IMG/VR virus record: IMGVR_UViG_3300031239_000007
Coordinates: 1-36,812 of that record
DNA: 36,812 bases
Direction: 5' to 3' (one strand)
DNA from: a virus
Shown here piece by piece: positions 63 through 36,812 of this stretch. The translations under genes and the position numbers were made by a program. The notes under the pieces were generated by a model that did no database searches, was not told the origin of the DNA, and saw only the letters and a program-made list of their open reading frames with translations. Each line of letters begins with the position of its first letter. The stretch's first letter is position 1.

Positions 63-842
63 ATGAAAAGAGCACTGATTGGATTGGCACTTGGCGCGGC
101 GATGGCCGCATGTGGTGCGGGTGGAAAGCCCGCCGCGAAGGACGTGCGGATTCCGGCACCGCAGCCGGGGTTCGTGGCAGAGGAGCTGAAAGTCGGCGAC
201 CCTGGGATCTCGTTTTCGTCGGCGGCCGACGACTACAACAGCTTCGTCGAGTACGGCCCGAAGGGCTACGGCGGGGTCGCCAATCCCGCGAACGGAGAGC
301 CAGTCTCTCACACGCAACAGACGTACGCAGTTGGGACGTCTCCCTACTACTGGCCGACGGAGATCACGGTTGCGATCATCCCGCGCGCCCAGGGCTTCGG
401 AGGACACTGCCCGGACTCGCCGTGCTTCCAGGTGCAATTCACCTCGAGCGCGCACAACGACGCTTACCACCCAAATCTGGTGGGGACCGTCTTCATCGCT
501 GGAGGAGACAGCCAGATCGTAGGAACCTCGGCCAGGCAGGTGGTTGGAGGCGTTACGAGCTGGTACTACCCTGGGGCTATGTACCCTGGATATTTCGGCC
601 TTGACTCACACAACGCCGGGGCTCAGGTGCTGTTTTCTTCCAGTGGTGGGGCAAATCCAACGACCGGTAGCCTGAGTTTCTCGAATGGCGCCGCGGCGTC
701 GATTCGTCAGATCTACATCGTGTTCCCAGATGGTTCTTCTGCGCCACGGCCGGCAAACGCATGGATCTGGGCATCCGTGGAAGATCCGACCGGGACGTAC
801 GTGTATGATCAGTACTCGCTCGCCACGATCAATCCAGGCTGA
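63..842 (+). CDS. Putative secreted lipoprotein (phage cargo gene)
   Basis: A 259-residue protein of no family I recognise. The start at 63 is preferred over an in-frame ATG at 48 because GGAGGG lies just upstream of 63. The N-terminus has Lys-Arg followed by a hydrophobic stretch ending in M-A-A-C with Cys17, which fits a type II signal peptide; Met at -3 is a less usual lipobox residue. The mature part is rich in Gly, Ser and Tyr and has two nearby cysteines in HCPDSPCF, which suggests a folded envelope or surface domain. It runs opposite to the late operon and stands alone, as expected for a lysogenic-conversion or superinfection-exclusion cargo gene. That role is inference. It belongs to the left, variant version of the cassette and has no counterpart at the right end of the window. 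Confidence 0.6.
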   Translation: MKRALIGLALGAAMAACGAGGKPAAKDVRIPAPQPGFVAEELKVGDPGISFSSAADDYNSFVEYGPKGYGGVANPANGEPVSHTQQTYAVGTSPYYWPTEITVAIIPRAQGFGGHCPDSPCFQVQFTSSAHNDAYHPNLVGTVFIAGGDSQIVGTSARQVVGGVTSWYYPGAMYPGYFGLDSHNAGAQVLFSSSGGANPTTGSLSFSNGAAASIRQIYIVFPDGSSAPRPANAWIWASVEDPTGTYVYDQYSLATINPG

Positions 843-1162: not shown

Positions 1163-1420
1163 TCAGTGGCCTTTCGTGACGAGTGCGGCGATGACGGCCC
1201 CCGCGGTCGCGAGCGCACCGGTTGCGATGGCCCCGGCGAGCCAGAGAATCAGGCTCATCTTGACCTTCATGCCTTCGAAGGCGACCTTGATGCCCTCGAT
1301 CGATCGAGCGATTTCGCCCTCGAAATCCCGGTGCCGTGCGTGCGACTCCTCCACCACTGAAAGCCTCCCCTCGATCTCTCGAACGTCTTCGATCGTGTAT
1401 GACTCGCGTGCGCTATTCAT
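1163..1420 (-). CDS. Coiled-coil plus C-terminal membrane segment protein (XhlA-like)
   Basis: 85 residues from the ATG at 1420, which overlaps the upstream stop in an ATGA junction. The N-terminal 50 residues form a charged heptad-like helix (EIEGRLSVVEESH and onward). A hydrophobic stretch of about 25 residues rich in Ala, Gly and Leu follows, with a KGH end. This layout is that of the XhlA/hemolysin-type membrane proteins that phages place beside holin and endolysin genes. The counterpart at 35803-36042 has the same architecture but little sequence identity. The lysis role is inferred from architecture and position. Confidence 0.5.
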   Translation of the reverse strand: MNSARESYTIEDVREIEGRLSVVEESHARHRDFEGEIARSIEGIKVAFEGMKVKMSLILWLAGAIATGALATAGAVIAALVTKGH

Positions 1421-1773
1421 GCGACGGTCCCCGCCGGGAGCAGCCCGGCCGCGACGAGAAACGACTCGGCCGCCTTGTTGCGCGCTCCGATGCCGCCGGT
1501 TGACGCCGCCACCAGATCGGTGAACCCCGTGGGGGTCGTGGCACCGAAGATCTCGAGGATGTCCGCGTACCCGAGGGGGGACGCCTTTGCGCGCAGTCCC
1601 TCGCTCGCCCCGTCGCGGATGCCCAACGTGTAGAGCTGCGGCCACGGGAGCGCCCCCGCGCCCTGGACCGCGACAGTGACAAGCGCGGTGTTGGTGTCAC
1701 CGTTGAGGTCTACGACCACCACGCGCATCTTGGCGATGTTCGGGACCGGGATGTTTACCGTGAGGTTGAGCAT
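1417..1773 (-). CDS. Conserved phage protein of unknown function (left copy)
   Basis: 118 residues, opening MLNLTVNIPVPNIAKMRVVV. It looks like a compact beta-rich globular protein without signal or membrane segment. The start at 1773 is ten bases below the tail-fibre stop. A second copy of 119 residues lies at 36039-36398 and is about four-fifths identical by eye, including the shared C-terminus LPAGTVA. Its fixed place just after the fibre gene in both versions suggests a fibre accessory or virion role, but I do not recognise a family. Confidence 0.6.
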   Translation of the reverse strand: MLNLTVNIPVPNIAKMRVVVVDLNGDTNTALVTVAVQGAGALPWPQLYTLGIRDGASEGLRAKASPLGYADILEIFGATTPTGFTDLVAASTGGIGARNKAAESFLVAAGLLPAGTVA

Positions 1774-1783
1774 CGAGTTCCCC

Positions 1784-3307
1784 TTAGTTTTGGCAGCGCC
1801 ACGCGGTGCCGTCGTAGATGAAGTCCCAAGCGCCGTTGGTGGTGGTGGTCAGGGAGGTGCCGCTGCGGAAGGTGATGTTCCCGGCGTTGGTCACTTGAGA
1901 AGCGGTGCCGGTTCCGAAGATGAGCGTCACCCGCGAGCCGGCTTGCCAGTTCGTGGTGGTGATGGTCGTGATGACCGTGGTTCCGGTGATCGGGAAGACG
2001 TTGCCGTCGTTGCCGAGGGTGATGGTAGTGGCGCTGGCGACTGCCGCGCCTTTGCCAGTCTGGTGGCGAGTGTTGTGGATCAGGCCGTTGGCGTTGACGT
2101 GGAGCTGCTGAGTACCAGCCGCCGACCACCCGAGGTCATCGGTAGCAGCCTGGAACAGGCCGGATCCGACGTTGGCATTGAAGTAGATCCCGGCCGCCGG
2201 CGCAGAGCCGCTCGCGCCGACGTTGAGCACGCCGAACACACCGACGTAAGAGCCGGAAACCCGAAGTGGCGTGGCTCCCGAGTATTGAACGCCGACAGTG
2301 CCGGCCGCGGCCTCCGTGAATCCGTAGAGCGACGAGTAGACCGGGAATACGCGCCATGTTCCCGAACCCTGGGAGATAGCAATGCAGGTATCTCCGGAGT
2401 TCAATCCGAGTCCCTGTGCGCCGGGAGTGAGCAGGGATGCGCCGTTGGTCAGCGCCCACGTGCACCCTGCGCCGATGGTGCAGATTCGAACCGTGCCGGC
2501 CGCGACGGTCCCGAGCGCCGTGGTGGTGAACACACCCGACCCGGTGACGGTGCCATAGAGACCAGACACGGTAGAAAGGTCGGTGGTCCCGTTGACCGCC
2601 GCGATCGTGAACGTGCCCTGATGGAGCGCGTCCGTCGCGGCCCCTGCCGTGGTCTGACCCGTGCCGCCGTTGCCGAGGGGAAGCGTGCCGGTAACCTGAG
2701 TCGTCAGGCTGGCAGTGCCCGAGATGTCGGCAAACGCCGGCTGTGCGAGAACGGACGAGCCGTCATTGGCGATCGAGGTCAGGAACTGGTGGGCAACGGC
2801 CGCTTTCGTCTGGACGCCATGGTTGACCACGCCCGCGTCATTCTTGATGGCGAGGTTCTTGGACGTCGAGTCGACGTAGACCGTCCCGATGCCCGCCGCC
2901 GGGGTGCTCGGGGCTGCGATTGCCGTGAAGAGCAAGGCGCCCGTGACCGAGGTGGCGTTGGCGATGGTGAGCGCGTCTCCCGCCAGGGTGATCTTCTTGA
3001 TGACGCCGCCGTTGTCCCGCCAGTAGGGCTGGCCGAGCACGTCGGTGATGGCCTCGTTGGTGAGGTCGGTTGAGGTGTTCGCGAGTTGGGAGAACGCCAC
3101 GGCGTAGAGCGAGCTCGCTCGGTGCGACGCGAAGCTGAGGTCCGCGTTGATGTTGAGCCCGGCCGCTGGGACCTTCACGCCCTTTCCGGTGGTGTGGTCG
3201 TGCGCGTCGACGGTGTTCAGCGCGTTCGAGATGTTGGTGGCGTAACCCGTGCCCGCGTCCCCCACGACGGGGACCTGGAGCCCCATGTTCGGGGACGTCG
3301 TCGGCAT
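1784..3307 (-). CDS. Tail fibre / receptor-binding protein
   Basis: 507 residues. The N-terminus carries the phage-fibre motif DAHDHTTGKG followed by LNINADLSF, typical of virion-attaching ends of fibres. A central module (about residues 130-205: TPAAGIGTVYVDSTSKN, then GVQTK, then FLTS) is shared with the large fibre at 12982-15672. A GNGGTGQTT segment, common in phage fibres, follows. The C-terminal 130 residues are the presumed tip and end WRCQN. The last 404 bases of the gene recur at 36409-36812 with scattered substitutions and no net length change. In the circular reading of the genome this tip is an allelic variant. The start follows the previous stop by one base. Confidence 0.8.
   Translation of the reverse strand: MPTTSPNMGLQVPVVGDAGTGYATNISNALNTVDAHDHTTGKGVKVPAAGLNINADLSFASHRASSLYAVAFSQLANTSTDLTNEAITDVLGQPYWRDNGGVIKKITLAGDALTIANATSVTGALLFTAIAAPSTPAAGIGTVYVDSTSKNLAIKNDAGVVNHGVQTKAAVAHQFLTSIANDGSSVLAQPAFADISGTASLTTQVTGTLPLGNGGTGQTTAGAATDALHQGTFTIAAVNGTTDLSTVSGLYGTVTGSGVFTTTALGTVAAGTVRICTIGAGCTWALTNGASLLTPGAQGLGLNSGDTCIAISQGSGTWRVFPVYSSLYGFTEAAAGTVGVQYSGATPLRVSGSYVGVFGVLNVGASGSAPAAGIYFNANVGSGLFQAATDDLGWSAAGTQQLHVNANGLIHNTRHQTGKGAAVASATTITLGNDGNVFPITGTTVITTITTTNWQAGSRVTLIFGTGTASQVTNAGNITFRSGTSLTTTTNGAWDFIYDGTAWRCQN
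2061..2187. repeat. Left copy of exact 127-bp repeat
   Basis: These bases, inside the tail-fibre gene, are identical to 36686-36812, the last 127 bases of the window. The preceding base differs (C at 2060, T at 36685). Upstream of this point the two copies are similar but not identical. The length equals the maximum k-mer of common de Bruijn assemblers, which points to a contig re-entering itself. Confidence 0.95.
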
Positions 3308-7140: not shown

Positions 7141-8890
7141 GGGTCACACCCTTGCGCTTCGCGGAAACCTGCTTCTCGATGTCGGCCATTGCCGCCATGA
7201 GAGCCGATACCGCCATGGGGATGTCGATGGCCTTCGTCCCGTTGACCTGGGTGACCATGCCCTTGCCGAGCGGGCCGGCTTTCTCCACCTGTTCAGCGAT
7301 CACGCCAAGGTGTTTCGGGGACTCGGTGTCAGGCATCGGGAGCCCGCGCTTGGCCATCTCGTCGGGCTTGTAGGCCCACGTGGTCGGGGTGATTTGCGCG
7401 AACATGGCCCGCGCTTCATCGGGGGAGGGGCGCACGTTGGTCTTGACCTTCTTCGAGGAGGCCGCCGCCAGGGGGGCCAGGGATGCCGCCTCTCCAGCAA
7501 GGCCCGCCGCTCCGCCGGCCGCCGCCGCATCACCAGCCGCGCCAGCGCCGCCCATGAGACCGGCCGCCGAGGCTAGCTTTGATGCCGGGGAGATGAGCCC
7601 CGCCGCGCCCGAGATGTCACCGAACAGGCTCGACCCGCCCCCGCCGCTCGGCTTAATGAGCGAGCCCGGGAGCGCGCCAGCGGGGGCCGCCGAGGTGGCC
7701 TTGTTCAGGGTCGCGAAGAGGTCGGCAACCTGCTGGGAAGCCGCCGGCCGCACGTCCGCCTTGACCTGCTCGGAGCTGATCCCCAGCTTATTCGATACCT
7801 CCTGTCCGATGCTCTTGCCATTGGCGGACGCCTGGTTCTCGGCCGCCTGCTCGCGAGAGCTCGCCGCGGTGACGTTGTTGCCCGCCGCCGTGTTGGCCGC
7901 GCCCGCCATGTTGCTCTTAAAGGTGAGGTCCTGGCCCGTGGTCGTGACGCCGTTGGCCGCGTTCGTGGTCTGTCCCGCGAGGTCGTTCGCCGCGTTCGTC
8001 TTGGCGATGTCGGTGTCACCCGTGCGGATGTTGGCGCCCGTGGTCGAGATACCCGAGCCGATGCCCGCCAGGGTGTTTCCACCCGACACGATGTTGTTGC
8101 CGGTGTTCCCGATCGCGGTCCCGGTGGCGGTGACGTTGTTGCCGATGCCTCCCTGTGCCGTCCCGACGTTGGCGAGGCCCGTGCGCGCCGCGTTCTGCTC
8201 GGTGGCACGGAGGATCGCAGCCTGGGCCGCCTCCTGGGCGTTGAGGCCACCGCTGTTGTTCATCGCTGTACGCAACGCGAGTGCGCGGTTTGCACCCGTG
8301 GCGCCAGCCGCAGCGCCGAACTGGGCCGCGACGTTCTGTCCAGCCTGCTGTTCGCCCTGGAGCTGCGCAACGCTCGGGGCAGCGCCTGATAGCACGTCCC
8401 GGTAGGACTGCCCCGCCGCGCCGAGAGTGCCCCGGGCAGCCGCCTGGTCAGAGAGGCCAGCGCCCTGGACGCCGGTCGCGCCCACCTCGGTGCCGATGCC
8501 AGCGCCAACCACGGGAATCCCGCTCGCCTGGACGCCAGCGCCGCCCATCTGGAGCGCCCGCGCTTGGTCACCCTGGGTCGTATTCAGGGTCGGGGCCGTG
8601 ACGGTCGGTGCCACCGCGCCCGACCCCGACTTGGCCATTTGCGAGAACTGGTCGCGCAGATTGCCGGCCGCCGCACTGGCGTTGGCGATGTCGTTCCCGG
8701 GGGTGACCGGGTTGTAGCCGCCCGCGACGGTCGAGCCGTCGGGCTTCTGGGTGTAGATGGTCCCATCCGCCAGGGTGGTGGTGGTCGACCCGTCGGGATT
8801 CGTGACCACCTGGGGTGACTGCGCGCCGCCCGCGACGATGGACCCGATGGGAGTATTCGGGTCCTGGAACTGAGAGAATGGATTTCCCAT
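7133..8890 (-). CDS. Virion protein with C-terminal peptidase S74 chaperone domain
   Basis: 585 residues. The N-terminus (FSQFQDPNTPIG) and a TNPDGSTTT segment are followed by Ala/Gly/Asn/Thr-rich repeats built on TG, GN and NT. The last 108 residues form an S74 intramolecular chaperone: SSKKVKTNVRP, then HLGVIAEQVEKAG, then the final helical segment. Family knowledge says a Ser-Lys dyad five residues apart self-cleaves just before the Ser; Ser478 and Lys483 fit. The signature start is partly duplicated at residue 372 (SSEQVKADVRP, then FATLNKAT). S74 domains usually end trimeric fibres, so the mature body is probably a trimeric spike or needle, although the repeats could also be internal. 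It overlaps the next gene by 8 nt. Confidence 0.75.
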   Translation of the reverse strand: MGNPFSQFQDPNTPIGSIVAGGAQSPQVVTNPDGSTTTTLADGTIYTQKPDGSTVAGGYNPVTPGNDIANASAAAGNLRDQFSQMAKSGSGAVAPTVTAPTLNTTQGDQARALQMGGAGVQASGIPVVGAGIGTEVGATGVQGAGLSDQAAARGTLGAAGQSYRDVLSGAAPSVAQLQGEQQAGQNVAAQFGAAAGATGANRALALRTAMNNSGGLNAQEAAQAAILRATEQNAARTGLANVGTAQGGIGNNVTATGTAIGNTGNNIVSGGNTLAGIGSGISTTGANIRTGDTDIAKTNAANDLAGQTTNAANGVTTTGQDLTFKSNMAGAANTAAGNNVTAASSREQAAENQASANGKSIGQEVSNKLGISSEQVKADVRPAASQQVADLFATLNKATSAAPAGALPGSLIKPSGGGGSSLFGDISGAAGLISPASKLASAAGLMGGAGAAGDAAAAGGAAGLAGEAASLAPLAAASSKKVKTNVRPSPDEARAMFAQITPTTWAYKPDEMAKRGLPMPDTESPKHLGVIAEQVEKAGPLGKGMVTQVNGTKAIDIPMAVSALMAAMADIEKQVSAKRKGVTRG

Positions 8891-12985: not shown

Positions 12986-15672
12986 CTGCTGAATTCCCAG
13001 ACCACGATCCGGCCAGTGGAGCCTGCTCCGCCAGTTACCGCGCCGGTGCCCGTGGCATTGTTGCAGCCGCCGCCGCCGCCTGCTCCAGGTCCTGACCCGG
13101 CGGTGCCAGCGACGCCGGTACCTCCGCTCGGTCCACCCTGACCGGGTCCGCCGCCCGGTCCTGAGGTTCCGCCGTGACCGCCCCAACCCGTGGTCGATGC
13201 CGTCCCCGAGCAGTGCCCGACGCTGCCCGGGTTGCCGGTGCAGCTGCATAGGGTAGTCCAGCCCGCGCCGGTCAGGGAGAAGGTCCCCCCCGCTCCGAAC
13301 GTGGTCACGGTAGGAGCCGCCGCAGGAGTGGCTCCGAGGCCGCCCGTGCCGCTGTTGCATGTGATCGTGTTCGTGGCGTCGGTGATGGTCGTGTTTCCGC
13401 CTGACCCGCCTGTTCCGCCGAGATTAGTGCCCGCCGAGCCCGACGTGCCGATGGTGTAGGTCATGGTGGCGGTCGGAGATGGCACGTAGACCTTGCAGTA
13501 AGCGCCCGCGCCGCCACCGCCACCCGCGCCGGCCTTGGCCGCAGCCGACACTGCCACGCCGCCTCCGCCGCCTCCTCCGCCCCATGCCTCGATGATCAGC
13601 GACCCGATGCCCGCCGGCCTGGTGTAGGTCGCCCCGGCTCCACTCGTGAGTACCTGGAACGACTTCAGCCGCCCCGGGGCCTGCGCCGCGCCAGCCGAGC
13701 CCGCGAGGTCGGTAAAATTAGGCTGAGCCGCCGAGAACACCCCGGCGTCGTTGACCGAGGTGAGGAAGTTGCTTGCCGTGAACCCCTTCGTTTGGACGCC
13801 ATGGTTGACCGTCCCGGCGTCGTTGATCGCTGCGATGTTCTTCGAGGTGCTGTCAACGTAGACGCGCGTCTTCCCGGCCGCTGGAGTTGCCGGCGCGGCG
13901 ATGTTCGTGAAGAGGATGTCGCCCGCGGCCACGGTGTCGTTCGGGATATTGATGGCCGCGGTGTTGAAAAGTCCCGTGGTCGCCAGACCCGTGACCATCT
14001 GGCCGGCGGTGATGGACTGCACCAGCGGCATGACCGAGGTGAACCCGGACGTGCCGTTGTTCGACTTGATGACCCGGTCTGTGGAGTCCGACCAGAGAAC
14101 CGAGTGCGCCGAACCCCCCGTGACCGCCGCGCGGTCTGCGAAGCTGATATCTCCCGCCGCCGGTGTCCCGTGAGGGATATTCGCCAGGGTCGTGACCGTG
14201 CCGAGTGCGCCAACGGTCGTGACGTCGCCAGTGAGCGGGCCGGTGAAGCCGCCGCCGCCCGGGGGGGCTGCCCACGTGTAGTCTGCCCGAAGGAAGTTGG
14301 TGGTACCGCCCCCGCTCGCCGGGGTGCAGTCAGAGAGCGCGGGCTGAGAAGACGTGAATGCCCCGTTCGACGCCAGTCCTGTGAGCCACTGGTGAGCGGG
14401 GGCGGTTGCCGGGTACGCGGTGATACTGGTCAGGCCAGCGCTGTTGATGCAGTTCCAAATGGCATTGGTGGAATCCGCAAAGACCCGCGCCTTGCCTGCC
14501 GCTGGCGTCGCCGGGGCCGCGGTGAGCGTGACGAGCAGATCCCCGACCATCGGAACGTCATTCGGGATGTTCGCCAGGGTCTGCACCGTGGAGCCGAGCG
14601 GCTTCGTCACATCGCCGGTGAAGGCCGGGAGTTGCGCGGCCGCGATGACGCCGGTCAGGTCGCTGAAATCGGGCTGGGCCTGAACCTGGAAGCCGCCCGA
14701 ATCGACGTTGGTGACCCACCGATGAGCCAGCGCCGTCGCCGGAAAGATGGTGTTCGAGACGTTGCCTACGCTGTTGATGAACCCCCAGAGTCCACCGCCA
14801 AGATTGAGGTGGAAGGCCCGCCCATGGCCCGCGCTCGGCGTGGCCGGGGTGGAGATGACGGTGGTAAAGAGGTCGCCCGGCATGGGCGTGTCGTTCGGGA
14901 TATTGGCAAGGGTCTGAACCGTGCTCCCGAGTGGCTTTGTAACGTCCCCAGTGAATGCGGGCAGTTGGGCCGCTGCGATGACGCCGGTCAGATCGGAAAA
15001 CGCCACCTGGCGCGAGGTGAATTGACCCGTGCCAGGGGTGAACCCATCCAGGACATTCGGCGCCAGTGAGCCCGCTCCGCTGGCCGTGGAGTAGAAAATC
15101 CCACTGGACGCACGCGAGCGGAGGTGACCGACGGTGACATCCGCCCAAACGCGCGTCAGTCCGGCGCTCGGGGTCGCGGGCGTGGATATTCCGGTGAACA
15201 GGATGTCCCCCACCGCGGGCGTGTCATTTGGGATGCGCGCCAGGGTGGTGATGGCCGTGCCGCTCGTCGCTGGCCAAGTCACGTCCCCCGTTCCGGTGAT
15301 GGCCCCCGCCGTGATCGTGACGTCGGTGTTGCCCGTGACCGGGTTGTCGATGACCACCGCGCCGCCCGCGAAGTTGAGGTTCCTTCGCTGTGGCATGGCC
15401 GAGCTCGCCAGCTTGATCGTGGTGTATGCGTTGACGCCCGCCCCGGTGCTCTGCGCGTTCGTGACGTTGATGTTGGCCGCGGTCAGGGACTGCGCCATGC
15501 GGTCGAGCGCGTCGTAAATCCCGACGTGAACCCTCTCGAGAGTCTGGTCGGGGTTCCCGAGGATGCGCTGGACCTTCGAGGGAGGTGCCACGGGGCGCAC
15601 TGGCGTCGGCGTGGTGGCGACCTTCTTGCCCGCCTGGGGGATGAGCCGCTTGGAGAACGGAGGGACCGCCAT
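12982..15672 (-). CDS. Modular tail fibre with glycine-rich receptor-binding end
   Basis: 896 residues. A basic, Pro-rich N-terminus (about 1-60) and a connector precede five repeats of about 90-125 residues (residues 129-665). Each contains variants of LANIPNDTP, GD, ATPAAG and FSDLTG. The C-terminal 220 residues form a glycine-rich domain: YTRPAGIGSLIIEAW opens it, followed by polyglycine and dozens of GG pairs, ending VVWEFSS. Glycine-rich sandwiches are known in phage adhesins, where surface loops contact the receptor. Cysteines in the domain are unusual for such adhesins. The repeat unit is shared with the 507-residue fibre. The start is 3 nt after the adaptor stop. Confidence 0.8.
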   Translation of the reverse strand: MAVPPFSKRLIPQAGKKVATTPTPVRPVAPPSKVQRILGNPDQTLERVHVGIYDALDRMAQSLTAANINVTNAQSTGAGVNAYTTIKLASSAMPQRRNLNFAGGAVVIDNPVTGNTDVTITAGAITGTGDVTWPATSGTAITTLARIPNDTPAVGDILFTGISTPATPSAGLTRVWADVTVGHLRSRASSGIFYSTASGAGSLAPNVLDGFTPGTGQFTSRQVAFSDLTGVIAAAQLPAFTGDVTKPLGSTVQTLANIPNDTPMPGDLFTTVISTPATPSAGHGRAFHLNLGGGLWGFINSVGNVSNTIFPATALAHRWVTNVDSGGFQVQAQPDFSDLTGVIAAAQLPAFTGDVTKPLGSTVQTLANIPNDVPMVGDLLVTLTAAPATPAAGKARVFADSTNAIWNCINSAGLTSITAYPATAPAHQWLTGLASNGAFTSSQPALSDCTPASGGGTTNFLRADYTWAAPPGGGGFTGPLTGDVTTVGALGTVTTLANIPHGTPAAGDISFADRAAVTGGSAHSVLWSDSTDRVIKSNNGTSGFTSVMPLVQSITAGQMVTGLATTGLFNTAAINIPNDTVAAGDILFTNIAAPATPAAGKTRVYVDSTSKNIAAINDAGTVNHGVQTKGFTASNFLTSVNDAGVFSAAQPNFTDLAGSAGAAQAPGRLKSFQVLTSGAGATYTRPAGIGSLIIEAWGGGGGGGGVAVSAAAKAGAGGGGGAGAYCKVYVPSPTATMTYTIGTSGSAGTNLGGTGGSGGNTTITDATNTITCNSGTGGLGATPAAAPTVTTFGAGGTFSLTGAGWTTLCSCTGNPGSVGHCSGTASTTGWGGHGGTSGPGGGPGQGGPSGGTGVAGTAGSGPGAGGGGGCNNATGTGAVTGGAGSTGRIVVWEFSS
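13680..15288 (-). repeat. Five tandem coding repeats in the fibre shaft
   Basis: About 270-375 bp per unit, with approximate boundaries. The second and third units both begin with the same 20 residues (GDVTKPLGSTVQTLANIPND), preceded by AAAQLPAF. The fifth unit (TPAAGKTRVYVDSTSKN, GVQTK) is closest to the module in the other tail fibre. The pattern suggests duplication within the gene and exchange between the two fibre genes. Confidence 0.7.
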
Positions 15673-16671: not shown

Positions 16672-16687
16672 TGGAGCCTCTCTTTCG

Positions 16688-16756
16688 TAGCGGGGACGTG
16701 GGTCGAACACGTTCGTGCCGGCGTATGAGACCGGATTGCCTCCGAGGCTCCCCGCT
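16688..16756 (-). tRNA. tRNA-Met(CAU)-like gene with minimal D arm
   Basis: Read on the minus strand from 16756. The acceptor AGCGGGG pairs perfectly with CCCCGCT (16689-16695). The anticodon stem CCGGT/GCCGG (16730-16734 with 16718-16722, one G-U) encloses the loop CTCATAC with anticodon CAU, U33 and A37. The variable region is CACGA. The T stem ACGTG/CACGT encloses the canonical TTCGACC. The discriminator base is A16688 and CCA is not encoded. Only 15 nt lie between the acceptor and the anticodon stem, so the D arm is reduced to GCCT-CGG-AGGC (or GCC-TCGGA-GGC), which still keeps a GG pair. A CAU tRNA could be Met or lysidine-modified Ile; the AGCGGGG acceptor is Met-like. Confidence 0.7.
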
Positions 16757-17511: not shown

Positions 17512-18759
17512 TTAGGCGATCTGGCTCACGCCGTTGTGCTGAGGGGCGTTGCACACCAGGAGGAACAGCGCCTTCAGGCGGGCGATCTGCGAGTCGGACG
17601 AGGGGTCGTCGATCATCGGAGCCGAGGTCGAGCAGTAGGTGTTGTTGTAGACCGGGTCCTTGGCCACGCCGTTGCCGAGCCGCATCTCCCACGAGCTCAT
17701 CTCGAGAGCGAAGATGCGATCCGCGTACATGAAGGGCGAGCCCTGCACCTTCAGGCTTCCGGTCGGGCCGTGAAGCACGACGGACTCGTAGAAGATGCCC
17801 ACGCCGCCGTCCAGGTCCTGGGCCTCCGTCTTGGCGTAGACGGTGCTTCCCTCGATCTCCTTGACCAGCTTGCCCACGAAGTCGTTGGTGCAGAGGAGCA
17901 CGTCAGGCGAGCCGCCCGCGTCTCCCACGCGCGTCACGAGGTCGAAGATGGCTTCCTTGGCGGACTTCCCTCGACCGTCGACGCGAACGCCAGCGAGAGC
18001 CTGGGGAGCCACGGAGCGGTCCACGCCGCCGACGTCGATGCCGGCAGGAGCCACCAGGGGAATCCACCCGCCGACGCCGATGCAGTTGATCGCGGTCGCG
18101 CTTCCAAGCTGGTCGCCCTGCTGGAAGATGTAGTTACCGGCCGCCCACGAGGCCAGCGAGCCGGTGACGGTGATGGTGCCCGCGTCGCGGTCGACGGCCG
18201 ACACAACCACGGGGCCACCGTTGAGGGAGGCGGAGTTGATGGCGTTCGCGGAGACGAGGACCTGGCTCACGTCCACGATGTTCGTGTCCGTGCGGCTGGC
18301 CATGGTGATGACCTGGCCGGCGATGCCGCCCGCGGCGATCTGCCCGATCTCGTTGAAACCCGATCGGATGAGCGCGTGCTCGATGGAGTTCGCAAGCGTC
18401 TGGGTGGACGACTTGATCTCGGCCATCTTCAGCGCGACGACAGCGCCCGCGCCCTTCGACAGCTCGATGTCGGTGTTGCGGATGATCGCCTGCGCGTGGT
18501 TCTCGGTCCAGTCCATCGAGAACTTCACCCGCTTGGACAGCGAGCGGTTCGCGAGGGCGTTGGCGAACGTGGCGGAGCGGCCGGGCTGCCCGCCGTACTC
18601 GACCGGCACGGTGAAGCTTTCGCCCCCGCCAGCGGTCTTCTTGAACGCCCCCAGGAGGAAGCGCTTGTTCTCGCCGTACAGCATCGACTTCATCGTCGAG
18701 GCGTAGGTCTTTTTCAGGAGTGCATCGGAGTTCGGATCGGTAATGCCGGGAAGTGCCAT
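17512..18759 (-). CDS. Major capsid (coat) protein
   Basis: 415 residues (MALPGITDPNSDALLKKTYA). It follows the scaffold gene by 16 nt, the standard order. Features fit a HK97-fold podovirus coat: an N-terminal helical arm, then TVPVEYGGQPGRSATFANAL, a long spine-like helix region (IRNTDIELSKGAGAVVALKM), an inserted beta domain near residues 190-215 (GTITVTGSLASWAAGNYIFQ), and a C-terminal part with YADRIFALEMSSWEMRLG. Assignment rests on size, position and fold pattern. Alternatives such as a major tail protein are unlikely because scaffold and portal lie directly upstream. Confidence 0.8.
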   Translation of the reverse strand: MALPGITDPNSDALLKKTYASTMKSMLYGENKRFLLGAFKKTAGGGESFTVPVEYGGQPGRSATFANALANRSLSKRVKFSMDWTENHAQAIIRNTDIELSKGAGAVVALKMAEIKSSTQTLANSIEHALIRSGFNEIGQIAAGGIAGQVITMASRTDTNIVDVSQVLVSANAINSASLNGGPVVVSAVDRDAGTITVTGSLASWAAGNYIFQQGDQLGSATAINCIGVGGWIPLVAPAGIDVGGVDRSVAPQALAGVRVDGRGKSAKEAIFDLVTRVGDAGGSPDVLLCTNDFVGKLVKEIEGSTVYAKTEAQDLDGGVGIFYESVVLHGPTGSLKVQGSPFMYADRIFALEMSSWEMRLGNGVAKDPVYNNTYCSTSAPMIDDPSSDSQIARLKALFLLVCNAPQHNGVSQIA

Positions 18760-18775
18760 GGGAGTACCTCAGTGG

Positions 18776-19657
18776 TCAGACGGCAATCCCGAGCTGCTTG
18801 GCGTGGAAGCGAATCGCCTGTTCGATAGTCATCGATGCAGGAGGCTCCTTGTGCCGAGGCTCAGAGACTGCGCGGGTCGAAGTGATGGTCGGCGACGGGT
18901 CTTCGTCTGAGGGGGAGGTCTGCGCCTGAGCGCTGCGTGGCTTCGGGGTGCGAATCTTCGCGTAGTGGGCTTCGAGTCCTTCGAACGCTGCTTCGAACTT
19001 GCTTTTGGTCGTCGCTTCGTCCCAGGTGACAGGGACGAAGGAGCCATCGGGCTGAATGCCTTCCTGCTCCCACGCCCAAACCACCGCGTTGTAGGCGGTG
19101 ACGCCGGGGTCCTCGTCGACGGACGTCGGGTCGAGAGTCGCCAGGGTGGGATACAGGTGCTCACCTTCGGCGTTGGTCGCCTCCATGAGCTTCGAAATCT
19201 CTGCGATGTGGGCCGCCGTGCGCGCGCTGGCCTCCGCCTGGGTCGCCTTGGCCTTCTCCGCCTCGGCCGCCGCCTTCTCCTCGTCCATGGCCTTGAGCCG
19301 CGCCAGTAGGCCCGCCTGAACCTCCTCGGGAGTCGGGGGAGCCTCCTTCTTGGCCACCCGGGCCGCCATGCCCTTGAAGTCCTCGCCGGCTACCTCGCGA
19401 ACCAGCGCCTCGGGGTCAGCCTCATAGGCAGCCTTCAGCTCGGCTAGAATCTGGGCGCGAGTCGGGGCCGGGGGAGCCACCGCGACAGGGGCCGCCGGCT
19501 TGGCCTTGGCCGCTGCGAGTCGTTTCGCCTGCTGTGCGCGGGCAATGTCGGAGACACCAGCGGGTCGTTCGGCTGGCGTGACAGGGGCTTCCGTGGAAGC
19601 TGCCGCCACGGGCGCGGCATCGGCCGGCTGTGTCGAAGTCTCGGGGGAGGTTGCCAT
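18776..19657 (-). CDS. Scaffolding protein
   Basis: 293 residues, highly charged and Ala-rich. The first 65 residues are low-complexity Ala/Pro. A long helical section follows, with TRAQILAELKAAYEADPEAL and a coiled coil around MDEEKAAAEAEKAKATQAEA, then a small aromatic region (YNAVVWAWEQEGIQPDGSF). A disordered linker leads to a C-terminal helix (MTIEQAIRFHAKQLGIAV) suited to coat binding. It lies between portal and coat. A strong GGGAGGG ribosome site precedes the start, and the 18-nt element lies just above it. Confidence 0.75.
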   Translation of the reverse strand: MATSPETSTQPADAAPVAAASTEAPVTPAERPAGVSDIARAQQAKRLAAAKAKPAAPVAVAPPAPTRAQILAELKAAYEADPEALVREVAGEDFKGMAARVAKKEAPPTPEEVQAGLLARLKAMDEEKAAAEAEKAKATQAEASARTAAHIAEISKLMEATNAEGEHLYPTLATLDPTSVDEDPGVTAYNAVVWAWEQEGIQPDGSFVPVTWDEATTKSKFEAAFEGLEAHYAKIRTPKPRSAQAQTSPSDEDPSPTITSTRAVSEPRHKEPPASMTIEQAIRFHAKQLGIAV

Positions 19658-19666
19658 TCCCTCCCG

Positions 19667-19684
19667 TGTTGGCGTGCCCGATTA
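19667..19684 (-). promoter_or_regulatory. Start-associated 18-nt element, copy 4
   Basis: Plus-strand TGTTGGCGTGCCCGATTA. It lies 9 nt before the scaffold start at 19657 and includes the TAA stop of the portal gene. The spacer contains a full GGGAGGG ribosome site, so in this copy the element is not needed to supply one. Confidence 0.7.
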
Positions 19685-21592
19685 ATTACCCTTGAAGGCA
19701 GTCGGGACGGGGCCGGGGATCGCGTCGGCCTGGGGAATCGTCTGTGGCTGCGCAGGAGGGCCGCCAGCGGGCGCAGGGCCTGCCGGTGGTGCGGTAGGGG
19801 CCTGAGTCTTCCTGAGCCGCTGTACGTCGTCCCTCCAGTCAATGAGCATGTCGAGCACGTCCTGAGGGGCCTTGTCGGCGATGCACCGCCAGTAACGCTG
19901 GTTGGCCAGCTCGAACGCCAGGTCCAGGTCCAGCCCCGGGTCGGGCGCGGTCGTCTCGCCATCTTCGGTGATGGCGTCGAGGATGGACTCGATGGCGTCC
20001 CGTGCCGCGAATGCCGGGTTGAGCGCGGCGTCAACGTCGGGGTTCTGGGTGATGCGCGCGTAGGCGGTCGAGTCGAGCTTGCCCATCTGGAGCAGCTCGT
20101 TCGCCTTGTCCACGAGCCCCTCGGGGGTGCGCGGAAGGGAGGAGATGGCGAACGCCAGCTCGACCGAGTAGGCGCCAGGGGGGAGCTTCACGGCGTCCCA
20201 GTCGAGCTTCTTGGCAGATCGTCGCCCGGGGGCGGATACGACCGGCTTGACCTTCTCGCAGCCCCAGACGAGCTTCTTGCCGGCGTCGACCACGTAGGTC
20301 TCGAGGTTCTCGGCGAGCGTGCGGTGTCGCTGCTGGCTGTGATCGCCATACTCCCTGATCGCCTCGCCGCTGTTCAGCCCGCTCGGCTTGGCTCCCTGTG
20401 CCGCGAACTGGTTGACTCCCATTCGGGTCAGGATGCGGGAGCGGGTCGCGTCGCGGTCCCTGTAGAGCTCGGGGGGGCTGGCCTGGAAGACCACCAGGCG
20501 GGGCTCGTGGTCGCCAGCCCACCGCGTGACCTGGGCGACCTTGTTGATGAGCGAGCCGGTGTCGACGGCCGCCTTCTCGTGGATCAGCCAGCGGTTCTGC
20601 GCGCCCCGGCGCTGGTTCTCGAGGATGATCCTGTTCTGCTGGTTGAGGATCCACTGGTCGGCGAGGCACTGCTCAACCACGCCCTGATACTGCCAGCCCG
20701 GGCCGATGTTGTAGGCCACCAGGAAGCTGAAGGGGTGCTCCTCGTCGGGGTCCATCTTCGTCTTTCCGACGTTCAGGACCTTGTTGCCGACCGAGAGCAC
20801 GTGGACGCCAGGGGTAGAGCCGTCTTGGCTGGGTCGCCATCCTTCAAGGAGAGACACGAAGGACGCCGGCACGTCGACCACCAGGCCCGGCAGGTTGCCC
20901 GAGTAGGCGCCGGGGGCGGACATGATGTCGTCGGCGAAGTCGGGGTAGTCGCGACAGAGGTCGGATCGGAGCACGAACCGCCGGTGGTAGATGGGCTCAC
21001 GTTTGCCCGGGATCAGGGAGTAGGCCCGATTCCACAGGACCTCGCTCGGGACACACCGCTCGGACTTGATGACCTTCTTGCTGCCCTCCTTGACGATGAC
21101 CCGCTTGGAGACGCCCCAGCCCCAGGTGAGCGCGTCGCGGAACACGTTGGGGAGGTCGACGTAAAACCCGCAGCTCTTCATGAGCCCGAAGAGGAAGTCG
21201 CCTTTGCGCTTGGCGCGGATCCGCTGGCCCCAGTCTCCGTCTACCGTGACGAAGTGGCACCACGGCTTGGCGCTGCCCACGGTGGCCACCAGGGTCTCGA
21301 CACCGATCGCGATCTGGTTGTCGCTGGCGATCTCGAAGCTGTTGTAATTGGCGCCGTTGCCTGGGGTGTAGGTGAACCCGCCGGCCTTCGAGGTGGTCAA
21401 GCCATAGAGATTCGGGATGCGCCGGGCGCTGGCGTACTGCTGGAAGATGAACCCGTCTGCGATCCACTCAAAGCACCGCCCCTCGGCATCCTGGACGGCC
21501 GCCAGGAGTTGGTTAGCCTGGACGTCGGAGCCCGGCTCTTCCTCGAACCACTCCTTGTCGGCCGCTGCGCCGTTGAAGCCGCCGTCGCTCAC
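19682..21592 (-). CDS. Portal protein
   Basis: 636 residues from a GTG at 21592 (GTGA overlap with the 72-residue gene). Portal-like features are the large helical core, the WRDDVQRLRK C-terminal helix, and the segment GVVEQCLADQWILNQQNRII with a following basic QRRGAQNRWL, typical of portal clip and stem regions. A Pro/Ala-rich C-terminal tail ends the protein. The gene lies below the large terminase and above the scaffold. Its length is close to P22-like and other podovirus portals. It forms the dodecameric DNA channel at one capsid vertex. Confidence 0.8.
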   Translation of the reverse strand: MSDGGFNGAAADKEWFEEEPGSDVQANQLLAAVQDAEGRCFEWIADGFIFQQYASARRIPNLYGLTTSKAGGFTYTPGNGANYNSFEIASDNQIAIGVETLVATVGSAKPWCHFVTVDGDWGQRIRAKRKGDFLFGLMKSCGFYVDLPNVFRDALTWGWGVSKRVIVKEGSKKVIKSERCVPSEVLWNRAYSLIPGKREPIYHRRFVLRSDLCRDYPDFADDIMSAPGAYSGNLPGLVVDVPASFVSLLEGWRPSQDGSTPGVHVLSVGNKVLNVGKTKMDPDEEHPFSFLVAYNIGPGWQYQGVVEQCLADQWILNQQNRIILENQRRGAQNRWLIHEKAAVDTGSLINKVAQVTRWAGDHEPRLVVFQASPPELYRDRDATRSRILTRMGVNQFAAQGAKPSGLNSGEAIREYGDHSQQRHRTLAENLETYVVDAGKKLVWGCEKVKPVVSAPGRRSAKKLDWDAVKLPPGAYSVELAFAISSLPRTPEGLVDKANELLQMGKLDSTAYARITQNPDVDAALNPAFAARDAIESILDAITEDGETTAPDPGLDLDLAFELANQRYWRCIADKAPQDVLDMLIDWRDDVQRLRKTQAPTAPPAGPAPAGGPPAQPQTIPQADAIPGPVPTAFKGN

Positions 21593-21807
21593 TGGCTCGG
21601 CTCCTTCGCGCGCCGGGACAGGAAGTCGCCAAGGGCGTCAGGCTCCTCGGCGGGGGCGTCGTCGACCATGTGGACGTGCACCTGCTCGGTGGCCGCCAAG
21701 GGGTCGCACGTGAACGCGGACACGCTTTCGGCGTTCGGCGCGAACTGGCAGGAGCGGAGCGTCAGGGAGCGCGACGCCAGGAAGGTGACGAGGTCGTCGA
21801 GGGTCAT
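21589..21807 (-). CDS. Small protein between terminase and portal
   Basis: 72 residues (MTLDDLVTFLASRSLTLRSC). It has a short N-terminal helix, a beta-like centre with two cysteines (RSCQFAPN, FTCDP) and VHVHMVDDAPAEEP, then an acidic to basic C-terminus. No membrane segment or known motif. It carries its own copy of the 18-nt element and overlaps the portal start by 4 nt, so it is translationally coupled to the portal. It could be a head-assembly accessory, but I have no family evidence. Confidence 0.55.
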   Translation of the reverse strand: MTLDDLVTFLASRSLTLRSCQFAPNAESVSAFTCDPLAATEQVHVHMVDDAPAEEPDALGDFLSRRAKEPSQ

Positions 21808-21815
21808 CCCTGCCG

Positions 21816-21833
21816 TGTTGACGTGCCCGATTA
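21816..21833 (-). promoter_or_regulatory. Start-associated 18-nt element, copy 5
   Basis: Plus-strand TGTTGACGTGCCCGATTA. It lies 8 nt before the start at 21807 and includes the TAA stop of the large terminase gene. CAGGG lies in the spacer. Confidence 0.7.
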
Positions 21834-23261
21834 CCGGTTGGCTTCGCCCACGAGGCTTTCGTAGTCGGCGGCGTACTCCAGGTCCATGGCTTCCTGAATC
21901 TCTCGCCTCAGGCGAATCTGGCGCGCCTCGTGAGGGGTTGGATCAGGGGTCGGCGGGGCCGCGTAGGACTCCACTGCCCAGAGCGCCGCACGAAGGGCAT
22001 CCGCCAGGTTCTGTTTGAGTTTCCCCTTGGCCATGACCGACTTCCCTGTCGCCCTGGCCCTCGGGTCCCACATGGCGCACTTCATGACCGTCTCGAGCTT
22101 CGAGCCACGGCGTATCCAAAGCTTCTTGGCCGCCAGCATCCGGTTGATGCGCATGACCTCGTTCTCGGGGTCCTTCGAGGGGACCGCCTTGAAGCTGATC
22201 CGCTTGTCGGCGTCCAGGATGATCTTCATGCCGTCTTTTCGAGCGGACCCATAATCGTAAAAGGCATCCAACGGGTTCCAGCGGGTGACCATGGGGGTCA
22301 CGCGGTCGCCGGTGTCATCCCATGATCCGCCCTCACCCTTGGCGGTTTCGTCCTCGTCGGCAACCCAGGCACACCCGTCGCCGTTGCCGTGTCCAACCAC
22401 GATGAGCGCCTCCGCGTCGAGCGTGCCGCCGGGGTCGAGTCCGATGCTGTACCACTTGCACTTGGGGGCCTCGCCGTCGAACCCGTTGGCGTCTGGCCAG
22501 TACCTGAACACGCGGAGCGAGTTGTCCAAGGTTGGCCACATGCCCTTCCAGTGTCGCTGGAATTCGGGGCTGTCCTCTCCGCCGAGGTCGATGAGCGCCT
22601 TGGCCCGTTGTTCCTCACGGGATGCCGGCGGAAGGTACGGATTGCGGTTCATGTGTCCGCGGTGCTGGCTCCAGGCTGCTGACTTGGTGCCTTCGGTGAT
22701 GTCCCACCAGCCACCGATCCCGCTCAAATATCCCGGGATGCCCATGGCCAGGATGCGGCCGGCGTAGCGCATGAGTCCCGGTCGAACCATCTTGATGATG
22801 CCCTCGAGGTCGGGCGCGTCTTGGGCTTCGTCGATGACCAAAAGCGCGGGTTTTAAGCCTTGTAATTTTTTGATTTCGTTGGCGCGCCCCGAGAACACGT
22901 AACCCTTCGAGCCGTTGTCGAGGTGCAACTCACCTTCGACAACTCGCCCCGGCAGCCCGTTCTCGTCGATGAGCCGTTGCCAGTCCTCCAGGATGATCTT
23001 GTTCGCGTGCTCGATGTCGAAGTCGAGGAACACGACGTTCACGCCAGGTTGCTGAATGGCGACGTCGGCGGTCAGGACCGCGGCGAGGATGGACTTGCCG
23101 AGTTGCCGTGTCCCGAGGAACGTGCGGTCGGGGGTGACATCGTCGAACACCGCTTGCTGGTCGGGATAGAGCAATGCCCGCGCGTTCCACGACTTCGCGG
23201 ATCGGCGGGCTGCCTCGCGTTTCAGGCTGGCGAGTAACTTGCGGGCCGCCGCCTGGCTCAC
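21831..23261 (-). CDS. terL: Terminase large subunit
   Basis: 476 residues from a GTG at 23261. The ATPase part has Walker A GTRQLGKS (residues 50-57) and Walker B LLVIDEAQ (140-147, acidic pair D144-E145). The nuclease part begins with SIGLDPGGT (Asp276) and continues with FYDYGSARKDG. Domain order and size match phage large terminases, which drive DNA into the prohead with ATP and cut the concatemer. A GTGA overlap couples it to the upstream small-subunit candidate. The packaging type (headful or cohesive) cannot be read from the sequence. Confidence 0.9.
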   Translation of the reverse strand: MSQAAARKLLASLKREAARRSAKSWNARALLYPDQQAVFDDVTPDRTFLGTRQLGKSILAAVLTADVAIQQPGVNVVFLDFDIEHANKIILEDWQRLIDENGLPGRVVEGELHLDNGSKGYVFSGRANEIKKLQGLKPALLVIDEAQDAPDLEGIIKMVRPGLMRYAGRILAMGIPGYLSGIGGWWDITEGTKSAAWSQHRGHMNRNPYLPPASREEQRAKALIDLGGEDSPEFQRHWKGMWPTLDNSLRVFRYWPDANGFDGEAPKCKWYSIGLDPGGTLDAEALIVVGHGNGDGCAWVADEDETAKGEGGSWDDTGDRVTPMVTRWNPLDAFYDYGSARKDGMKIILDADKRISFKAVPSKDPENEVMRINRMLAAKKLWIRRGSKLETVMKCAMWDPRARATGKSVMAKGKLKQNLADALRAALWAVESYAAPPTPDPTPHEARQIRLRREIQEAMDLEYAADYESLVGEANR

Positions 23262-33857: not shown

Positions 33858-33942
33858 TCCGCTCGCCGGGGCCGCCCTGTTCCTGATCGGCGGGCTGGTC
33901 GGGGTGCTGTTGGCCTATCTGGCGTGGTTCGAGCGTGAATAG
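33847..33942 (+). CDS. 31-residue membrane microprotein
   Basis: 31 residues from the ATG at 33847, overlapping the kinase stop by 11 nt and the integrase GTG by 8 nt. One membrane segment fills it (LAGAALFLIGGLVGVLLAYL), flanked by MGCDP and AWFERE. The double overlap in an otherwise gap-free operon and the clean hydrophobic segment argue that it is translated. Function unknown; possibilities are a small inhibitor of a host membrane process or an integrase-coupling leader peptide. Confidence 0.5.
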   Translation: MGCDPLAGAALFLIGGLVGVLLAYLAWFERE

Positions 33943-35128
33943 CCTCGTCGAAGTGCTGCGGCGCGCGCTTGCGGAGGCCGAGAGGTCTGTGCAGACTGCC
34001 GGCGCGGCCAGCGGTCAGGGCCTTGAAAGCGGAATAGGAGACGACGGGGGCCTCCACGAGGAGGACCCTATGTATTCATGGATCGGAAAGACGCCTTACC
34101 GCCACCATGCCCGGTGGTTGGTCTGGGCGAAGGACATCACGGGCAAGCGGCAATCGAGGCTGTTCGACAGCGAGGTCGATGCCGCGGATTGGATCGCGAG
34201 GAACCGACGCTTCATCGTCGCCGACGGGCGGCTGATGGGGGTCGCCGTTACGGAATATCTGGCGTTCCTCGGGACGCGGAACAAAGCGCCGCTGAGGCCG
34301 CAATCGGTGGTGACACTCGGATACCGGCTTCGAGCCGTCGCCAGGTGGGACGAACTGGCGCCTGTGGGGCGCTTCTCGTGGTCGAAGGCATGGGCAGCCG
34401 CAACCCAGGAAACGGCCCGTGCAACGCAAACTGGGATGCTTGCGGCGCTCCAGGGGTTCGTGTCGTGGCTGGGCCTGCCCTCGAAGGTCCTGGCGGGGTG
34501 CGAGGTGAGCGGGGACGTGGTTCGAGGGAAACGCCAGTTGAGGATTGACGACGCGCGCAAGTTCATCGGCGCCGCGCTGGCCGATGGTTCCCCTTTGGCG
34601 TTGGCCGCCGCCACGCAGGCATTCTGCGGCCTGCGCCCCGGGGAGGTGGTCGAGCTTCAGGTCCGAGATGTCGACGACCGTGGGAGGTTGCTGTGGGTGG
34701 CCGGCACGAAGACGCGCGCCGCGAAGCGCGAGGTGCCGGTGGACCCGGCGTTCGTGCCACACCTGGTCCGCGCCGCCGCGGGCCGCGAGCCGGGGGAGCG
34801 CCTGTTCCCGTGGGAGGGGGAGGCCTCGAAGGACGCCCACAAGGCACGGAAGGACGCCTTGAGCCGCAAGGTGCGCGACCTGTGCCGAGCCGCCGGGGTG
34901 GAGAGGGTCGTGCCGCACTCGCTGCGCGGCCTGAACGCCACGTTGAGAGTTACCGGGGGAGCCTCGGACGCCAGCATCACCCGGGCGCTCGGGCACCTGA
35001 GCATCGAGACCACCCGCCGGCACTACATCGCCCCGGGCGTTGCGGAGAAGTCCGCTCAAATGTCCGCTCACGGGCGACTGACCGAGCCCCGGGAGTTACC
35101 ACAAGTTACCGAGGTCGAAGGCGCTTGA
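33935..35128 (+). CDS. int: Tyrosine integrase
   Basis: 397 residues from a GTG at 33935. The catalytic residues of tyrosine recombinases are present: Arg234 (FCGLRPGEV), Lys259 (AGTKTRAAKRE), His328-x-x-Arg331 (PHSLRG), His354 (LGHLS) and the nucleophile Tyr364 (RRHYIAPG). The N-terminal part carries an arm- or core-binding region (TGKRQSRLFDSEVDAADWIA and MGVAVTEYLAFLG). Two GTTACC repeats that look like arm-type binding sites overlap its last codons. It is the last gene of the operon that starts with the Xis-like gene, and the attachment site follows directly. Confidence 0.9.
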   Translation: MNSLVEVLRRALAEAERSVQTAGAASGQGLESGIGDDGGLHEEDPMYSWIGKTPYRHHARWLVWAKDITGKRQSRLFDSEVDAADWIARNRRFIVADGRLMGVAVTEYLAFLGTRNKAPLRPQSVVTLGYRLRAVARWDELAPVGRFSWSKAWAAATQETARATQTGMLAALQGFVSWLGLPSKVLAGCEVSGDVVRGKRQLRIDDARKFIGAALADGSPLALAAATQAFCGLRPGEVVELQVRDVDDRGRLLWVAGTKTRAAKREVPVDPAFVPHLVRAAAGREPGERLFPWEGEASKDAHKARKDALSRKVRDLCRAAGVERVVPHSLRGLNATLRVTGGASDASITRALGHLSIETTRRHYIAPGVAEKSAQMSAHGRLTEPRELPQVTEVEGA

Positions 35129-35277
35129 CAGGCGCGAGGCATTCCGCTTAGAAGTCGCGTGCTTACGAACGCGAGGATGGCGAAACTGGTAGACGCACTA
35201 GCTTGAGGTAGTTGGGACCGGCCGCAACTCGGCCACGGACGCGGACTTAGAGAAACTCGAAGGTTACCGGAGTTACC
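35095..35277. other. attP: core with paired arm-type sites
   Basis: GTTACC occurs twice on each side of the core: 35095-35100 and 35105-35110 (10-bp spacing) to the left, 35263-35268 and 35272-35277 (9-bp spacing) to the right. One-helical-turn spacing is typical of arm-type integrase sites. Between them lies the tRNA-Leu-like core. The arrangement int, P arm, core, P' arm is intact, so the sequence is a free or circular phage attachment site (or a junction of tandem prophages), not a single prophage end. Confidence 0.7.
35171..35209 (+). other. tRNA-Leu(GAG) 5' half at the attachment core
   Basis: The 39 bases match the 5' half of a bacterial tRNA-Leu: acceptor GCGAGGA, D arm GCG-AAACTGGTAGA-CGC, then CTAGC and loop TTGAGGT with anticodon GAG. 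Beyond 35209 the sequence diverges: the anticodon stem cannot close, and no T arm or 3' acceptor (TCCTCGC) follows. A small hairpin GGCCG-CAACT-CGGCC lies at 35220-35234. It is best read as the crossover core shared with a host tRNA gene. Confidence 0.7.
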
Positions 35278-35638: not shown

Positions 35639-35806
35639 TCAGACCTTCGCGCCGCGGAGCCGAGCGTAGGCGAGGGAGAACCCCGACACACCGACGCACG
35701 TCACCGCAAGCCACGTCGGGACCGCACCAGGGTTCGCCAGGGCGTAGGTGGTGACCGCCGAGGTGCCGAGCCCCAAGGATGCCAGGAACGCGTCCAGGCG
35801 ACTCAC
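35639..35806 (-). CDS. Small two-segment membrane protein, holin-like position
   Basis: 55 residues from a GTG at 35806 (GTGA overlap with the gene above). Two hydrophobic segments (AFLASLGLGTSAVTTYALA and WLAVTCVGVSGFSLAYA) are joined by NPGAVPT, with a basic tail (RLRGAKV). This hairpin topology is common among small holins. It holds the same slot as the 58-residue membrane protein at 985-1161 but shows no evident sequence similarity, so the slot has been exchanged rather than diverged in place. Confidence 0.55.
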   Translation of the reverse strand: MSRLDAFLASLGLGTSAVTTYALANPGAVPTWLAVTCVGVSGFSLAYARLRGAKV

Positions 35807-36042
35807 CTGCGCACTACCCAGCCGATGACGACAGCAACCACGACGGCCATGACGCCGCCCGCGATGGTGACGCCGATCCAGCGCAGCGCCTGGAGCTGGA
35901 GCTTGACGCCCTCCATGGCCGCCGCCAACGCCAGGGTGTGCGCGTCGAAGCGGTCGCGGAGTTGCCGGTGCTCGATGGCGAGGTCCTCGACCCGGTCGCC
36001 GAGGTTCTCGAACGCTTCGTGGCTGGCGAACTGCGGGCTCAT
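35803..36042 (-). CDS. Coiled-coil plus C-terminal membrane segment protein (XhlA-like)
   Basis: 79 residues from the ATG at 36042, ATGA-coupled to the gene above. A charged helical N-terminal part (FENLGDRVEDLAIEHRQLRD) precedes a single C-terminal membrane segment (WIGVTIAGGVMAVVVAVVIG) ending VVRR. The architecture equals that of the 85-residue protein at 1163-1420, with low sequence identity. A lysis-accessory role is inferred from architecture and neighbours. Confidence 0.55.
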   Translation of the reverse strand: MSPQFASHEAFENLGDRVEDLAIEHRQLRDRFDAHTLALAAAMEGVKLQLQALRWIGVTIAGGVMAVVVAVVIGWVVRR

Positions 36043-36398
36043 GCGACGGTCCCGGCCGGGAGCGCCCCGAGCGTCACGAGGTAGGATTCGGCCGCCTTGT
36101 TGCGCGCGCTGATGCCGCCCCCGACGTAGGCGGTGACGAGGTCGGTGAACCCCGTGGGGGTTGTGAACCCGAAGACCTCGAGGATGTCGCCGTAGCCGAG
36201 CGGGGTGCCCTTGGCGCGCAGCCCCTCGCTTGACCCGTCGCGGATGCCCAGCGTGAAGAGCTGCGGCCACGGGAGCGCCCCCGCACCCTGGGCGGAAACC
36301 GTCACGAGCGCCGTGTTCGTGTCGCCGTTGAGGTCGACCACGACCACGCGCATCTTGGCGATATTCGGGACCGGAACGTTGACCGTGAGATTCAACAT
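36039..36398 (-). CDS. Conserved phage protein of unknown function (right copy)
   Basis: 119 residues, close homologue of the 118-residue protein at 1417-1773. The first 35 residues differ at two positions or so, while the middle and C-terminal third differ more (for example YVGGGISARNKAAESYL against STGGIGARNKAAESFL). The start lies ten bases below the tail-fibre stop, as in the left copy. If the genome is the 34,625-bp circle, this copy is the one linked to attP and integrase. Confidence 0.6.
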   Translation of the reverse strand: MLNLTVNVPVPNIAKMRVVVVDLNGDTNTALVTVSAQGAGALPWPQLFTLGIRDGSSEGLRAKGTPLGYGDILEVFGFTTPTGFTDLVTAYVGGGISARNKAAESYLVTLGALPAGTVA

Positions 36399-36408
36399 GG
36401 ACGCTCCT

Positions 36409-36812
36409 TTAGTTTTGGCAGCGCCACGCGGTGCCGTCGTAGATGAAGTCCCAAGCGCCGTTGGTGGTGGTGGTCAGGGCGGTACCACTGCGGAAGGTGA
36501 TGTTCCCGGCGTTGGTCACCTGAGAGGCGGTGCCGGTTCCGAAGATGAGCGTCACCCGCGAACCGGCCTGCCAGTTGGTCGTGGTGATCGTCTGGATGAC
36601 CGTGGTACCGGTGATCGGGAAGACGTTGCCGTCGTTGCCGAGGGTGATGGTAGTGGCGCTGGCGACTGCCGCGCCCTGTTTGAGTTGGTGGCGAGTGTTG
36701 TGGATCAGGCCGTTGGCGTTGACGTGGAGCTGCTGAGTACCAGCCGCCGACCACCCGAGGTCATCGGTAGCAGCCTGGAACAGGCCGGATCCGACGTTGG
36801 CATTGAAGTAGA
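36409..36812 (-). CDS. Tail fibre C-terminus (partial, right copy)
   Basis: The stop is at 36409-36411 and the gene runs off the window. Its 404 bases match 1784-2187 with no net length difference. The 127 bases nearest the window edge are identical. The differences lie in the last 90 codons, around the segment before NDGNVFPITGT and in the strand region near the C-terminus. In the circular reading this is the tip that belongs to the fibre whose N-terminal part lies at 2188-3307. Confidence 0.8.
   Translation of the reverse strand, partial: YFNANVGSGLFQAATDDLGWSAAGTQQLHVNANGLIHNTRHQLKQGAAVASATTITLGNDGNVFPITGTTVIQTITTTNWQAGSRVTLIFGTGTASQVTNAGNITFRSGTALTTTTNGAWDFIYDGTAWRCQN
36686..36812. repeat. 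Right copy of exact 127-bp repeat at window end
   Basis: Identical base for base to 2061-2187. It lies at the very end of the window, and the distance between copies is 34,625 bp. It marks the point where the sequence re-enters itself. Confidence 0.95.

Follow-up and report, generated by a model that had tools for sequence, protein, structure and literature searches.

Metagenome assemblers based on de Bruijn graphs, such as metaSPAdes and MEGAHIT, end their contigs where paths meet, and the ends keep overlaps as long as the largest k (maxK) (PMC10914622). For SPAdes, k lists with 127 as their last value are in use for metagenome work (PMC6511391, PMC8364033). The maxK overlaps, which are the basis of COBRA, are identical stretches of the largest k at contig ends, at a node with two incoming paths that come from repeats or from strain variants (PMC10914622). 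The stretch of DNA analysed here, hereafter the window, corresponds to an entire virus record in IMG/VR, which has 36,812 bases and is classed there as linear, with no end repeats found. It shares these traits with overlaps of the COBRA type, but the partner of its terminal overlap is internal to the same contig instead of lying at its other end, and rules comparing one end with the other (IMG/VR 'linear', COBRA 'self_circular') would therefore overlook the closure. Our results suggest that the window is very probably a lollipop path in a de Bruijn graph of k = 127, in which a phage genome of 34,625 bp closes on itself, and that the repeated 127 bases are most likely an overlap left by assembly bookkeeping and not a biological duplication.

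Gokushoviruses have circular genomes, and 80 of their contigs from IMG/VR formed our control set. Exact 127-base suffix overlaps were present in four of the 80. In two of these contigs (L035 and L067), the 127 bases form a plain end repeat. The other two resemble the window in having a head, a mismatch, a 127-base overlap and a loop of genome length: a single SNP stands just before the overlap in both, with a 54-base head and a 4486-base loop in L058, and a 53-base head and a 4394-base loop in L065. Since two of the 80 controls are lollipop-shaped, IMG/VR yields the shape of the window where a strain variant of a circular virus is present. The likeness does not extend to the head, which in these controls has 53-54 bases with one SNP, whereas that of the window has 2,060 bases and is 14% diverged, then unrelated. 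Further overlap lengths recur among the gokushovirus contigs (99, 121, 123 and 144), as expected of other assemblies.

The terminal overlap

The last 127 bases of the window (36686-36812, no strand assigned) are identical to positions 2061-2187 at 127 of 127 bases, and the base preceding the run is T in one copy and C in the other; an exact match search confirmed the preliminary description on both points. This is the longest suffix of the window that recurs elsewhere, the run stops where the window does, and no comparable exact match to the window start exists elsewhere in it. The overlap links the 3' end to position 2061 and not to base 1, which gives a lollipop rather than a plain circle, and the lengths add up (2060 + 34,625 + 127 = 36,812). 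Similarity extends further to the left at a lower level: positions 1417-2187 and 36039-36812 are 88.5% identical over 777 columns, and 560 of 650 columns (86.2%) are identical once the exact 127 bases are left out. The chance of a 127-base identical run at 86.2% identity is about 6e-9, and the next longest identical run between the two versions has 71 bases. We infer that 127 is the k of the assembler, a widely used value, although a truncated repeat would look alike.

The overlap very probably formed as follows. The main population would be a phage with the 34,625-bp genome 2061-36685, and circular, circularly permuted or concatemeric DNA would all fit. A relative in the same sample would have at least 127 identical bases from position 2061 on, and would differ from the main phage in the fibre tip, the 118-aa gene and the region beyond. 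In the graph, the edge 1-2187 would lead into the node, which lies inside the fibre gene (first occurrence at 2061-2187, likewise unstranded) and whose sole exit would be the self-loop 2061-36812. The assembler would have written out the branch of the relative (1-2060), the shared node and one turn of the loop, and would have halted on meeting the node again, leaving the 127-base overlap at the contig end. A toy graph of k = 127, made from the loop as a circle together with the head, has two edges of 2187 and 34,752 bases, the latter a self-loop, and their sum minus 127 is 36,812. These edges are unchanged whatever length is shared past the node, and their path is exactly the window. Because this result follows from the lengths, the agreement speaks for consistency and is not a proof. 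Treated as a circle, 2061-36685 contains exact repeats of at most 20 bases, and no other break is therefore expected in it.

Real duplication is possible but less likely. It would imply one linear genome with two diverged cassettes of the fibre tip and the 118-aa gene, where the contig breaks as an identical stretch of the second copy begins, and we give this very little credence. A repeat node in a single genome likewise leaves a k-long overlap at the contig end (PMC10914622), and if the repeat is exactly 127 bases long, the toy graph has these two edges and one more. However, a repeat of more than 127 bases splits the loop at a second branch node (extra nodes appeared in the toy graph for repeats of 200, 500 and 1247 bp), and read-pair resolution would therefore be needed for the contig to pass. 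Duplication also needs a second complete fibre gene and more genome past the contig, yet 2061-36685 already has a full set of single-copy hallmark genes.

Two alleles at the junction

Both versions carry, on the minus strand, the end of a fibre-like protein followed by a protein of 118 or 119 aa. By the head route, the fibre-like protein has 507 aa (1784-3307, minus strand), and its gene is common to the loop route from 3307 down to 2061. By the loop route, the 3' part of the same gene lies at 36409-36812 (minus strand) and forms one open frame together with 2188-3307. The frame is unbroken from 36685 into 2061 and has 508 codons, including one that precedes the ATG; either route gives a complete fibre gene. 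The head allele of the adjoining gene encodes 118 aa (1417-1773, minus strand) and has no assigned family; the loop allele encodes 119 aa (36039-36398, minus strand).

Positions 1417-2060 and 36039-36685 are 86% identical with dN/dS of about 0.2 (0.18 for the 118-aa gene and 0.20 for the fibre C-terminus). Because the ratio is this low in both genes, the head and loop versions are, as judged from their sequences, separate functional alleles under purifying selection, rather than a recent duplication or a copy in decay. To the left of positions 1417 and 36039, comparison of head and loop gave no nucleotide similarity, a point against the lollipop reading. Hence, the earlier proposal that 1-2060 is a second allele from a co-occurring relative stands for 1417-2060 and needs revision for 1-1416, which has a different gene content. 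The proposal that a path at k = 127 re-entered a used node draws support from the toy graph, the fibre frame, the divergence of the alleles and the gokushovirus controls.

The two fibre-like genes also contain repeats, internal ones at 14480-14995 and others between the two genes (2805-2965 against 13787-13947), with 71-73% identity. Fibre repeat units are matched in the fibres of three other contigs (L003, L004 and L089). Two of them, L003 and L004, were rejected as relatives, their resemblance to the window being confined to these units and not genome-wide.

The loop as a probable complete phage genome

The loop (2061-36685, 34,625 bp, no strand assigned) is probably a complete genome, circular or circularly permuted. 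It encodes a terminase (phrog_2), SU10-like portal and capsid proteins, a primase-helicase, a dNMP kinase and an integrase, along with candidates for tail and internal virion proteins and a phosphoesterase of the DNA-transfer family. The loop has a single terminase, portal, capsid, primase, integrase and attP-like site. The late genes continue uninterrupted through the join and end opposite the integrase, facing it. Beyond the allele pair, the loop encodes two small membrane-type proteins, one protein of 107 aa and the integrase, and contains the att-like site; one of the membrane proteins (79 aa, 35803-36042, minus strand) shows, read by eye, a coiled part and one C-terminal hydrophobic stretch. 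The preliminary description took 2061-36685 to be a complete circular or permuted genome. All the checks that we ran support closure at 34,625 bp, but the circle is one of assembly topology, and assembly closure does not distinguish a circular molecule from circularly permuted or concatemeric DNA.

Two RNA-like features lie elsewhere in the loop. A possible tRNA-Met (CAT) is located between structural genes (16687-16756, minus strand). It was considered and rejected as linked to integration, being far from the integrase and having no convincing resemblance to the tRNA-like remnant of the head. A search of Rfam gave nothing above threshold; the match of 8837-8887 to the Acido-1 RNA reached 28.8 bits where 50 are needed and is probably due to chance.

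The integrase is a tyrosine recombinase of 397 aa with a predicted start codon (33935-35128, plus strand; phrog_1, 2.5e-25; PF00589, 1.5e-15). An attP-like site (35171-35208, plus strand) separates it from the end of the late genes; the site corresponds to the 5' half of a tRNA-Leu gene, as far as the anticodon loop (GAG), and phage genes lie on both its flanks. From this layout, integration would replace the 5' half of the host tRNA and its promoter, which is reportedly a rare arrangement among bacteria (PMC8371274). An exact 38-base search of genome contigs gave no attB with the same core, and the exact core is in no other viral contig searched. A promoter-like TTGACA at 35125 overlaps the integrase stop codon, ahead of the tRNA-Leu(GAG) 5' half, which lies on the integrase side of the att-like site (35125-35208).

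The att-like site also bears on a further explanation, that of two related prophages in tandem in one chromosome, or a sequenced dimer, in which the order of head, body, att site and second left end would be real. The gene order would then be the same, and an integrase and an att-like site are indeed present. The earlier argument was that an intact attP agrees with a circular form: the half-site flanked by phage genes fits an unintegrated genome, but a tandem array would match too. Other observations speak against the tandem. The left end of the first prophage should carry the tRNA-Leu half-site, and none was seen at 843-1162, where the single tRNA-like feature is a different remnant; host genes were not identified; and the length of the identical run is that of an assembler k. 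Tandem prophages are thus possible but less likely, and in our view highly improbable.

The head branch

In our preferred reading, that of a circle joined by the branch of a relative, the head (1-2060, no strand assigned) would be the end of a related phage or prophage whose sequence is common with the loop from 2061 on; its origin in a second genome of the sample is what we infer. No separate record of this relative was found, which counts against this reading, though near-identical records may be omitted from the searches concerned. The head encodes a small membrane protein of 64 aa (1163-1357, minus strand) with very weak similarity to the 79-aa protein of the loop (blastp E = 0.001, 23% identity over 39 residues). 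A putative lipoprotein of 259 aa (63-842, plus strand) is present in the head branch only; searches of Pfam, PHROGs, cultured phages, plasmids and viral contigs gave no relative of it.

A tRNA-like remnant at about 871-930, which separates the lipoprotein gene from the late genes, has acceptor arms GGGATGG/CCATCCC and a good T-arm (GGAGGTTCGACCCCTCC), and no anticodon arm. Neither this remnant nor the att region folded better than shuffled sequence. The remnant is possibly the att site of the relative itself, and 1-1416 might be cargo or host DNA beside a related prophage.

The last possibility can be put more specifically: the circle would be as proposed, and the head would be the end of a related integrated prophage, with positions 1 to about 900 being host chromosome next to the att site. 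This is a sub-version of our preferred reading, and both may hold together. G+C content is 61.3% in the first 842 bases, no window of equal size in the loop falls that low (minimum 62.1%), and the position of the remnant, with its T-arm and acceptor end, fits such a boundary. Yet, in tetranucleotide use, 1-1162 stays inside the range of the loop windows (15% of which are equally far off), the plasmid and phage records searched gave no match to the lipoprotein gene, and the remnant was not called by ARAGORN, nor could a complete tRNA gene be rebuilt there. On balance, we regard a host flank as possible but rather unlikely.

Relatives of the phage

One contig shares more than fibre repeats with the window. 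In an 11.5-kb fragment (L089, IMGVR_UViG_3300044819_000039), terminase, portal and capsid have 74-80% protein identity to those of the window, and the fragment is colinear with 15.5-24.7 kb, which confirms that the packaging and head block is a real phage module. The fragment reaches neither the junction nor the integrase, and it is a single contig, found through the portal alone: searches with the terminase and the capsid gave no relatives among the viral contigs searched. Capsid, portal and terminase (17512-23261) had no tblastn match in 50,697 phage records or in any cultured phage record searched, and none of the bacterial genomes searched has the terminase. A 41-base piece of the node is in no other viral contig searched. 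The SU10-like signal in Pfam is weak, with the capsid above the curated cut-off and the portal below it. Judging from these comparisons, the lineage is one with almost no database relatives.

Implications

Overall, the structure is an ordinary and well-explained assembly effect of an already known kind, around a phage of a poorly sampled lineage. A more ambitious reading, which we hold only tentatively and with slightly more doubt than confidence, is that the loop is the complete genome of an undescribed temperate phage lineage with an SU10-like capsid and portal signal, caught together with a relative that would have swapped the whole fibre-tip, lysis and integration region through recombination in the fibre gene.

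The closure removes an apparent gene duplication, and a record classed as linear becomes a probably complete genome. It also offers a simple test, that of a contig end matching its own interior by exactly k, which would recover complete genomes and strain variants that are overlooked when ends are compared only with ends.
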